A stretch of DNA of 50,649 nucleotides from Gammaproteobacteria bacterium. GTDB taxonomy: Bacteria > Pseudomonadota > Gammaproteobacteria > Chromatiales > Chromatiaceae. The first letter of the stretch is position 1, and every line of letters starts with the position of its first letter. Of the stretch, positions 1,346 through 50,358 are shown in pieces. The position numbers and the translations under genes are program-made. The DNA lies in assembly GCA_011390365.1 (NCBI GenBank), contig JAABSM010000022.1, positions 1 through 50,649 on the forward strand, written 5' to 3'. The notes beneath the pieces are model-generated. The model saw only the letters and a list, made by a program, of their open reading frames with translations, made no database searches and was not told the DNA's origin.

Positions 1346-1368
1346 GGGGAAGGGCTGGCGGTTTTACT

Positions 1369-1460
1369 GTGAATCTACCGAGGAGTGGCAGTCCTCAAAG
1401 GACTGCCACTCCTTGGGCTGATTCATTTCCCGGGGTGGTGCATCACTCCATGACCGTTAG
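1369..1460 (+). repeat. R1 hairpin element, copy 2
   Basis: Identical over 92 bp to copy 1 and, inverted, to copy 3. With copy 3 it also shares TTTACT immediately upstream, so the real element may be about 98 bp. It lies between the convergent ends of the globule-like gene and the three-gene operon at 1.5-6.4 kb. Confidence 0.9.
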
Positions 1461-6438: not shown

Positions 6439-6512
6439 ATTCGCTGAATCGCTGAAATAGATGGGGCATCCGTCTTGGAGTACAGCCCTGGGGCTGTACG
6501 ATAGCCTTTCAT

Positions 6513-6882
6513 ACGCCAAGGCGCATACAATGTCATTCCGTTAGCGCCACATCAGGCTCCCGCCGTTGATGCGCCTGACTCCGGAGCAGGCCGGAAATCG
6601 TCGGACCGGCATAGGATGTGCCAAATAGAAAGCCTTGTCGTTCGGTCGACGGCACTATGCAGAACCCAAAACGTCCGGCGTACCCACTAACGGTCATGGA
6701 GTGATGCACCACCCCGGGAAATGAATCAGCCCAAGGAGTGGCAGTCCTTTGAGGACTGCCACTCCTCGGTAGATTCACAGTAAATGAGGCGCATCATACC
6801 CGGAAACCGCCACGATGGCTTATCTTAATAATGTAACTGTTCAGAGTGCGTGTCCTCCATCCCCGAACCGGGTCGATATCCG
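6513..6882. repeat. Long dispersed repeat, copy A (interrupted by R1)
   Basis: This intergenic segment aligns with 30405-30675 in the same orientation. Shared blocks include GCAGGCCGGAAATCGTCGGA, CCGGCATAGGAT, AAGCCTTGTCG, TCGACGGCAC, GAGGCGCATCAT, GATGGCTTATCTT and CATCCCCGAACCGGG. Copy A is about 99 bp longer, and the extra is the R1 element at 6687-6778 plus a few bases. No protein frame is conserved between the copies, so it is non-coding or a decayed element. Confidence 0.85.
6687..6778 (-). repeat. R1 hairpin element, copy 3 (inverted)
   Basis: The exact reverse complement of 1369-1460. It sits inside the long dispersed repeat, between ...GTACCCA and AATGAGGCGCATCAT. The uninterrupted homologue at 30.4 kb has only a few bases (TGA) at this point. 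Relative to copy 2 it is inverted, with the protease/binding-protein operon between them. Confidence 0.92.
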
Positions 6883-6956
6883 AAGCGTGCATGGGGGGTG
6901 ATGCCTTTGGCGGGTCGTGATTGAACCCGGCCCGGCAAACCGCCTTGGCGTGGCTA

Positions 6957-7100
6957 GCCACCCTGGAAAATGCATCGATCCAAGGAGTGGCGGTCCTTGA
7001 AGGACCGCCACTCCTCGATCGATTCCCACTCCTCGATCGATTCCCACTCCTCGATCGATTCCCACTCCTCGATCGATCCATGGTAAAGCGATCGATTCAC
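6957..7100 (-). repeat. Diverged R1-family element with expanded arm
   Basis: This is related to R1 in the minus orientation. GCCACCCTGGAAAATGCATC matches the R1 right part, followed by a hairpin with arm AGGAGTGGCGGTCCTT (6982-7014). The left end, ATTCAC, falls at 7095-7100. Between hairpin and end are four 18-bp tandem copies that R1 lacks. Confidence 0.75.
7009..7080. repeat. Four tandem 18-bp repeats
   Basis: The unit CACTCCTCGATCGATTCC occurs at 7009-7026, 7027-7044 and 7045-7062. A fourth copy at 7063-7080 differs at its last bases. Each holds the palindrome TCGATCGA. The first unit begins in the right arm of the adjacent hairpin, so the array looks like an amplification of that arm. 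About 200 bp to the next gene (7101-7294) hold nothing recognisable. Confidence 0.9.
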
Positions 7101-13560: not shown

Positions 13561-13583
13561 CGCTTCACCACGAATGCGTGGAG

Positions 13584-13611
13584 GAGCGGCGGTCCTTTCG
13601 CGGACTGGCAC
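13584..13611. repeat. Imperfect R1-type hairpin between lptA and lptB
   Basis: GGAGCGGCGGTCC and GGACTGGCACTCC form an imperfect stem around TTTCGC. It belongs to the same GGAGTGGCAGTCC hairpin class as R1 but lacks the R1 flanks. It lies between two genes of one operon. Confidence 0.6.
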
Positions 13612-13666
13612 TCCTGGTTTTCGTTCACATGGAGGGTATTGCGCCGCATGATGATCGCTGGGGAAC

Positions 13667-30250: not shown

Positions 30251-30404
30251 GGGGTGAGACCTCGTGATCGGAAACGGCAGCGGAGGAAGTTAGGGGAGCG
30301 CGCGGCGAAAAGCAAGCAGAGCGCTCGGGCGAAGGTTCGTTAACCTCACGATAATACGAATTTATGACCCGATCACCATCTGGAGCTGCGCGATTACCCC
30401 TCAC
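30251..30404. other. dgt upstream region
   Basis: About 150 bp that should contain the dgt promoter. No clear motif is seen. It leads into the long dispersed repeat. Confidence 0.35.
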
Positions 30405-30675
30405 ACGCCAAGACGTATAGCATGTCACTCCATTAGCGGCACGCCAGGTTCCCGCCGTTGATGCGCTTACTCCGTAGCAGGCCGGAAATCGTCGGACCGG
30501 CATAGGATATGCCTAATAAAAAGCCTTGTCGCTCGGTCGACGGCACATCTATACAGAACCAAAAACGGTCGGCTTACCCATGAAATGAGGCGCATCATTC
30601 CCGGAACATGCCAGGATGGCTTATCTTGATGACATTGAAGGCGTCTACTCCATCCCCGAACCGGGCCGATACCTC
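30405..30675. repeat. Long dispersed repeat, copy B (uninterrupted)
   Basis: The homologue of 6513-6882, about 271 bp in the same orientation. At the point where copy A carries R1, this copy reads TTACCCATGAAATGAGGCGC without insertion. Both copies lie between two leftward genes. The rest up to 30800 has nothing recognisable. Confidence 0.85.
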
Positions 30676-32274: not shown

Positions 32275-32464
32275 GGGGTCTCGCTTCCGCTGCTGGCGGA
32301 TAATACCCTTTCGGATTACGGGCTTGGTGGATGCTTCTGGCCTTTTGAAGAATTCTCGACAGGATTAGCGGGAGGGGGTCTTGTGATGTCTTGTGGCTTC
32401 CGCGAGGTGACCTCAAGCGTCCCTGAGCAGCGCCGGGGCGACCGATGAAATTGCTACCATGGCT
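32275..32464. other. Intergenic, no gene recognised
   Basis: About 190 bp after the possible remnant. Frames here are short and without support. It leads into the large inverted repeat. Confidence 0.4.
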
Positions 32465-32527
32465 AACGATCATGGCGTTGCGCCACCCCGGATGATGAAA
32501 CATAGGTGGCGCAACGCCGTGATCGTT
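32465..32527. repeat. 23-bp inverted repeat
   Basis: The left arm at 32465-32487 (AACGATCATGGCGTTGCGCC plus ACC) pairs with 32505-32527 with one wobble position. The loop is 17 nt. It resembles the ends of a MITE or a large stem-loop. A CCCTCACCCC-type hairpin follows directly. Confidence 0.85.
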
Positions 32528-32562
32528 CCCTCACCCCGGCCCTCTCCCAGAGGGAGAGGGGG
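32528..32562. repeat. REP-like CCCTCTCC hairpin
   Basis: CCCTCACCCCGGCCCTCTCC followed by CAGAGGGAGAGGGGG. This is the same repeat family as the insertion inside dsrN at 8.4 kb, here in its usual intergenic setting. Confidence 0.7.
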
Positions 32563-32691
32563 AATAAGGAATCGCTGCGCGATGTTTCACAGTAAAGGTA
32601 AGCGATGTTCATGGCAGCTTATCCGCTCGCTTTATGGATTTTCTGACTAGTGCAGCACTAGCAACCAATATGGACCGGCCCGACCGCCCCA

Positions 32692-37188: not shown

Positions 37189-37206
37189 TCTAATCCACAA
37201 GGAGCG

Positions 37207-37239
37207 AGGAGTGCCAGTCCTTCAAGGACTGGCACTCCT
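37207..37239. repeat. R1-type hairpin between convergent genes
   Basis: A perfect 16-bp inverted repeat with arm AGGAGTGCCAGTCCTT and a 1-nt nominal loop. It is of the R1 hairpin class but with GCC for GGC in the arm. It sits about 20 bp after the IalB-like stop and 3' of the cyclase gene, where it could terminate both transcripts. Confidence 0.85.
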
Positions 37240-37249
37240 TGACCGAAGG

Positions 37250-37365
37250 ATTCCCTCCCCGCCGGGGAGGGTCAGGGAGGGGGTACGGAGATTGGCGGCA
37301 TGATTTGAACTCCTCAGCCAGTTCCTGAGACCCTCCCCCCAGCCCCCTCCCGGTGGGAGGGGGAG
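37250..37365. repeat. CCCTCCCC hairpin repeats
   Basis: CCCTCCCCGCCGGGGAGGGT at 37254-37273 and CCCCCTCCCGGTGGGAGGGG near 37341-37362 are two hairpins flanking a short unique stretch. They resemble other C-rich hairpins at 1.24 and 32.5 kb. Confidence 0.75.
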
Positions 37366-50141: not shown

Positions 50142-50291
50142 AACCTGGCGCGGCACGGCGGAGCGCGCGGCTCGGCGCTGGTGCGGCGCTGGTTCCCAAG
50201 CTCCAGCTGCCCGAAACCGGTCAGCAAGCTAGAGCTTGCAAGACGTGCGTTGTCGAGTAGGCCAGCCAATCTCTTGAACCAGCCCCCCACA

Positions 50292-50324
50292 GAACCGAAC
50301 GTACGGATTTCCCGTATTCGGTTC
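50292..50324 (-). ncRNA. Group II intron domain V
   Basis: On the minus strand the 33 nt begin GAACCGAA and end TTCGGTTC, forming an 8-bp lower helix. A CG bulge and an upper helix TACGG/CCGTA with a GAAA-type loop complete the domain V shape. The usual catalytic triad AGC (in GAGCCG) is AAC here; its wobble partner is now a Watson-Crick pair. Confidence 0.7.
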
Positions 50325-50358
50325 CTCGGACCAAACGATTCGCTGTCCCGGAAATCAT

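Follow-up and report, generated by a model that had tools for sequence, protein, structure and literature searches.

Results

A short element, R1, was found to have inserted into one copy of a long repeat in the DNA analysed here, a stretch of 50,649 nucleotides from a gammaproteobacterium of the Chromatiaceae (the window). The insert is 93 bp long and lies immediately 3' of a CTAA tetranucleotide that is kept on its left (Table 1). Its mobility is near certain, and CTAA is very likely its usual target. Copies A and B of the long repeat have homologous flanks to the left and right of the site (80.7% over the 301 columns aligned, insert excluded), and the junctions read ACCCA-CTAA-[93 bp]-ATGAGG in copy A and ACCCA-TGAA-ATGAGG in copy B, so the pair of filled and empty sites proposed in the preliminary description is real. 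That description had put the difference in length between the copies at about 99 bp, R1 plus a few bases; the insert itself is 93 bp, and the remainder comes from further small indels in the repeat. The ends that it had predicted, ACTGTGAATC and ACCGTTAG (other strand), were correct to within a few bases.

Table 1. Features of the R1 element, its host repeat and its relatives in the window
Feature	Position	Strand	Basis
Long repeat, copy A, with the insertion	6488..6885	+	long-repeat comparison
Long repeat, copy B, empty	30380..30671	+	long-repeat comparison
R1 element, 93 bp, filled site of copy A	6691..6783	+	junction, copy edges, empty homologues
CTAA target tetranucleotide, left of the insertion	6687..6690	+	CTAA in 41/44 full copies and 5 empty homologous sites
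Empty site of copy B, TGAA	30581..30584	+	junction reading and long-repeat alignment
Clamp arm TGAATC, pairing with 6772-6777	6722..6727	+	joint arm changes across subfamilies; 82.0% of cells paired, 38 R1-type rows
15-bp hairpin AGGAGTGGCAGTCCT / AGGACTGCCACTCCT	6734..6766	+	DNA fold z, pairing
Right-end box GATTCACAGTAA	6772..6783	+	count of the 12-mer GNTTCACAGTAA
R2, 133-bp subfamily, R1-like ends, CTAA included	32463..32595	+	shared end boxes, copies, fold
Second full R1 copy, CTAA included	1364..1460	-	sequence match and edges
Third R1 copy, cut by the window/contig start	3..94	-	sequence match and edges
Old diverged R1 relative	6938..7026	+	sequence match

The direction of the change was read from other copies of the host repeat. 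When the long repeat, with the element removed, was compared with stretches of its own genome (G000), 17 other places covered the site, copy B among them, and the insert was absent there from all 17. Copy A therefore gained R1, as had been suggested earlier. Loss by deletion in copy B, without mobility, is a reading that two alleles in a single window leave open as to direction, but it is extremely improbable and was rejected, given these 17 empty copies and the presence of R1 with the same edges at dozens of unrelated sites. The empty alleles at the R1 site are CGAA in 13 of the 17 copies and CGAG, CCAA, CAAA and TGAA (copy B) once each, and CTAA occurs in none of them; the tetranucleotide that copy A offered before insertion is not directly seen. 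The host repeat is itself a repeat family, about 300 bp long and with numerous diverged copies: the two in Table 1 and those at 16 or more further places in G000. It accumulates R1 and R2, a longer element with R1-like ends, at more than one of its sites (L139), and two of the 17 empty copies bear R1 or R2 at a different CTAA (L139).

At least 45 full-length R1-type copies are present in G000. A profile scan of 35 stretches (602 kb, window included) returned 44 full-length and 17 partial copies, and one more full copy lies outside these stretches at C120:28397. A list of sequence matches in the same genome held at least 80 matches, of which 40 represent one per copy and the others the palindrome matched against its own opposite strand (the best 40 of 111 candidates scored). 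With many copies, the same edges and natural before and after alleles, R1 is the discrete moving or acquired element that the preliminary description had taken it for. The highest profile score is common to 23 of the 44 full copies, and the copies listed at 100% are identical to that of the window, so the movement of R1 was recent. Several contigs, that of the window included, start or stop within a copy, and the copy number is therefore probably underestimated. Fragmentary hairpin remnants related to R1 were also observed at 37204-37261 and 13565-13661 of the window, and a head-to-tail array of 18-bp repeats at 7012-7083 has grown from the right part of the diverged relative. A search of Rfam gave no match on R1; at the end of the window, a group II intron match was present on the minus strand (50252-50326, RF00029, 50.4 bits).

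R1 is one of several subfamilies with common ends. Elements with dissimilar interiors have the same box at the left end and the same right-end box, GNTTCACAGTAA; their sizes in G000 are 97 bp (R1), 100 bp, 133 bp (R2) and 141 bp, with one form of 82 bp, which leaves no room for a transposase gene in any of them. R2 has at least 16 copies, 15 of them at 98-100% (scoring covered the best 15 of 79 candidates) and another at C160. R1-type elements and R2 share targets to the base at GATATCTTG-CTAA (position 94 of the window and C135), CCGGA-CTAA-AGTCCGG (C97 and C6) and GTGTCTCYGTGG-CTAA (C86 and C34; C82), and also occupy one CTAA of the same long repeat at two places on C81. That the two types sit at an identical base within the host repeats they share is strong evidence that one machinery and one target would serve both. 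As a separate observation, the sequence up to the R2 copy near 2895 of L173 (G000:C6) reads by eye as the protein LFIDEYDNFADAG, and this copy may interrupt a gene.

CTAA stands at the left edge of 41 of the 44 full R1-type copies, the remaining three having CGAA, TTAG and CAAA, and its density in the window is 0.79 per kb on both strands at a G+C content of 64%. The flanks of 50 distinct copies from G000 and a second genome, G003, each with at least 30 bp on either side, were joined and compared with the available loci, and a junction-spanning match was obtained for 11 of them. The unfilled homologous site is exactly CTAA for five of the 11 (c4, c26, c35, c38 and c40), as in CCGGACTAAAGTCCGG, CCGGCTAAAGCC and CCCGCTAAATAAG; several of these sites are in G003 and not in G000, and that of c38 has about 5 bp missing at its right edge. 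Among the other six, c0 is the R1 site of the window itself, c6 and c18 match elements and not empty sites, and c2, c10 and c32 gave weak junction matches or lack CTAA. The orientation of the elements relative to CTAA is constant.

Neither a long target duplication nor a clear terminal inverted repeat is present, which bears out the earlier description, with TAA at both edges making a 3-bp TAA duplication indistinguishable from none. Where the left site is altered, to CGAA (L159) or TTAG (L171), the right side does not match it (GTAA and GGAA). The left end CGGTCATGG and the right end CTGTGAATC, read inward, match only weakly by eye. Insertions fell on the G-rich strand in 15 of 32 cases (copies scoring above 80 with a skew beyond 0.02), and no strand bias was seen with this uncalibrated 20-kb GC skew.

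The elements fold strongly as single-stranded DNA: R1 has fold z values of -6.4 and -7.3 on its two strands against shuffles, and R2 folds 8.4 standard deviations better than shuffles. Covariation was scored in 38 of 42 distinct R1-type rows, after one row cut by a contig end and three very divergent ones had been dropped. In these rows the 15-bp hairpin is paired in 98.6% of cells, with changes on both sides in 3 of its 15 pairs, and the whole named structure is paired in 93.9% of cells compared with 33-45% when slid. Both-side changes occur in 5 pairs (shuffled mean 1.8, with 11 of 500 shuffles reaching 5), with a covariation score of 0.065 as against 0.029 for shuffles, of which 0 of 500 come up to 0.065. 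A control slid by -1 also gives 5 such pairs and a score of 0.056, and for this reason the covariation of R1 is judged to be moderate. The two arms of the right-end clamp differ jointly between subfamilies (TGAATC/GATTCA, TGAAACAT/ATGTTTCA, TGAAACAA/TTGTTTCA and TGAAAGT/ACTTTCA). As the 5' clamp arm of R2 is located in the loop of the left hairpin, hairpin and clamp would together form a pseudoknot, or else the clamp would be a sub-terminal inverted repeat read as duplex.

A mobilising enzyme was sought at the ends of the elements and in the transposase genes of the carriers. The right-end 12-mer GNTTCACAGTAA occurs 57 times in G000 (reversed control, 0), and no autonomous parent was found among these 57 places (34 were R1-type copies already listed, and the other 23 were read individually), in a survey that would overlook a parent with altered ends. 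Recognisable left ends lie 82-141 bp from the 12-mer, and at C20, C136:68183 and C142 the left end is decayed or missing. Two copies with a left end only (C46 and C162) showed no right end and no noticeable transposase in the stretch read. No PF01797 match in G000 was above cut-off; the single match below it is a broken RAYT gene on C124. In eight carrier genomes, none of 30 PF01797 loci (49 matches at E <= 1) had both family ends on one strand.

The cognate RAYT that the preliminary description had proposed to look for was sought and did not emerge. G000 has 14 RAYT matches, five of them above the NCBIfam cut-off, and each of the five is flanked by its own palindromes, which by eye are unlike R1. 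The R1 profile gave no match in the RAYT loci, and a GTAG or GTGG foot is missing from R1. One RAYT gene, accompanied by GTAGGGTGCGTTAG palindromes of its own, was noted at 2960-4240 of L092 (G000:C88) and in L091 (G003:C33). The two genes, which come from different genera, have 94.6% identity across 1035 bp, a near-identity that suggested the C88 gene as the mover; this candidate was rejected because its own palindromes are present. Four more RAYT genes, of about 180-207 aa and each with a different short palindrome, were observed in L098, L103, L107 and L110 (G000:C86, C169, C125 and C113).

Outside its own genome, R1 itself was found in 1 of 55 genomes (G003). The exact hairpin pattern occurred in 26 stretches of a species-genome collection that may omit the own genome, all of them from MAG S22.Bin169, and in none of the viral contigs. 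A left-end 15-mer was present in 8 of 93 genomes (G000, 60 matches; G057, 35; G003, 15; G019 and G075, 3 each; G033, G065 and G045, 1 each). The reversed 15-mer matched 12 genomes once or twice each, and single left-end matches are thus at control level; G033 is supported by two elements with the right-end box. Of the 35 places in G057, 11 were examined; five elements of 118-137 bp there have both ends, and others have a lost or altered right end. The other searched genome of the genus, G001 (89% complete), contained neither R1 nor the left-end 15-mer. Further subfamilies of the element family are carried by other genera.

Discussion

The insertion of R1 is precise, with CTAA on the left, a fixed polarity and many near-identical copies, and the family combines shared ends with different interiors and conserved palindromes. 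We lean towards reading R1 as a PATE-like mobile element without genes, with IS200/IS605-like ends, that would be moved in trans by a Y1 HUH transposase. The defining traits of PATEs are palindromes near the termini and the absence of inverted repeats and duplications (PMC3119063), and IS200/IS605 elements as a rule insert 3' of a particular tetra- or pentanucleotide with no duplication (PMC7290912, PMC5934647). We infer an enzyme of this type, a single-stranded intermediate, action in trans and excision: the transposase supplied in trans would recognise the folded single strand of the ends and excise the 93 nt between CTAA and the terminal GTAA, which would then go in 3' of another CTAA, in one fixed orientation and without target duplication. 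This reading is favoured by the 93-bp gain, the CTAA edge, the exact CTAA in five empty homologous sites, the target bases common to different subfamilies, the constant orientation, the hairpins on one strand with their paired changes and the joint clamp changes. Against it weigh the negative searches for a matching transposase and for a strand bias, the empty homologues of the own site without CTAA, the slid control with covariation near that of the named structure, and TAA at both edges. No guide match was seen either: by the pairing rule of IS608 (PMC5934647), a CTAA target would call for a guide that starts with AG ahead of the left hairpin, and by eye no AG was seen there in R1 or R2, the position of the hairpin foot being uncertain.

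A broader reading, which we regard as rather unlikely, is that of an orphan element family across several genera, with unlike ends joined by a co-changing clamp (in R2 a pseudoknot) and an exchangeable interior, which would be moved to CTAA by an enzyme outside the described pairs of IS200/IS605 and RAYT and with a code other than that of IS608.

It is also unlikely, on a somewhat lower estimate, that R1 is a REPIN-like element moved by a resident RAYT, the domesticated transposase TnpA-REP. Five such genes above the NCBIfam cut-off are present in G000, the broken gene on C124 has an R1 copy some 1.6 kb away, and RAYTs work on single-stranded palindromes (PMC8266576). However, the palindromes at the five genes, the RAYT loci without a profile match and the missing GTAG or GTGG foot speak against it, and cleavage by the E. 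coli enzyme is at CT (PMC8266576), not after CTAA.

A MITE of a TAA-duplicating DDE transposase, in which the element would run CGG...CAG over 90 bp between two TAA, fits the TAA at both edges, and its empty site would look identical. A constant orientation to CTAA is unlike a symmetric enzyme, and neither it nor the near-invariant C of CTAA would be expected of a roughly symmetric one. There is also no clear terminal inverted repeat, and the changes of the left site are not mirrored on the right, which makes such a MITE very unlikely.

Some IS91-, IS607- and IS110-like enzymes likewise insert without duplication and with fixed polarity, and one of them could have moved R1, an origin that we hold to be highly doubtful. 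For IS607 these properties can be traced in PMC6188088. An IS110-like enzyme would be expected to leave a long conserved target flank, and none was seen. To our knowledge, strong paired hairpins are not among the needs of IS607.

The titles and abstracts found in the literature did not describe these elements or a CTAA target, and the closest likeness is to the PATEs of Haloquadratum walsbyi. These resemble R1 in lacking a transposase gene and terminal inverted repeats, in having palindromes close to the ends and in targeting a short oligonucleotide (PMC3119063). They are also without target duplication, a likeness to be read with the TAA at both R1 edges, where a 3-bp duplication would look the same as none. 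The two are also alike in broken IS200-type transposases in the host, where most of those of H. walsbyi are broken, and in landing in other mobile elements. The ends of PATEs resemble known IS605-type transposons (PMC3119063), whereas no such parent was found for R1 among the 30 PF01797 loci of the eight carriers; R1 differs further in its clamp shared by different interiors, its bacterial host and its CTAA target. IS608 and ISDra2 (PMC5934647 and PMC6006769) resemble R1 in that they insert 3' of a fixed tetranucleotide, which stays on the left, and have a right terminal tetranucleotide, near-end hairpins and polarity. Their targets are TTAC or TTGAT, in contrast to the CTAA of R1, which carries no transposase and in which guide match and strand bias were not seen. 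REPs and REPINs with their RAYTs (PMC8266576 and PMC3116915) are likewise gene-less palindromic repeats, presumably moved in trans, in genomes with several RAYTs; unlike them, R1 has no GTAG or GTGG foot, has two unlike ends and a CTAA target, and is not adjacent to the five RAYTs above cut-off. A classical DDE MITE has terminal inverted repeats, a duplication and either orientation, whereas R1 has no clear inverted repeat and a constant orientation. Very short gene-less elements are usually defined by repeats alone. In the R1 family, the edges, the target and the natural empty alleles are defined almost to the nucleotide, and subfamilies have ends but not interiors in common, so the family offers ready material for testing which enzyme moves such elements and which features of the ends that enzyme reads.
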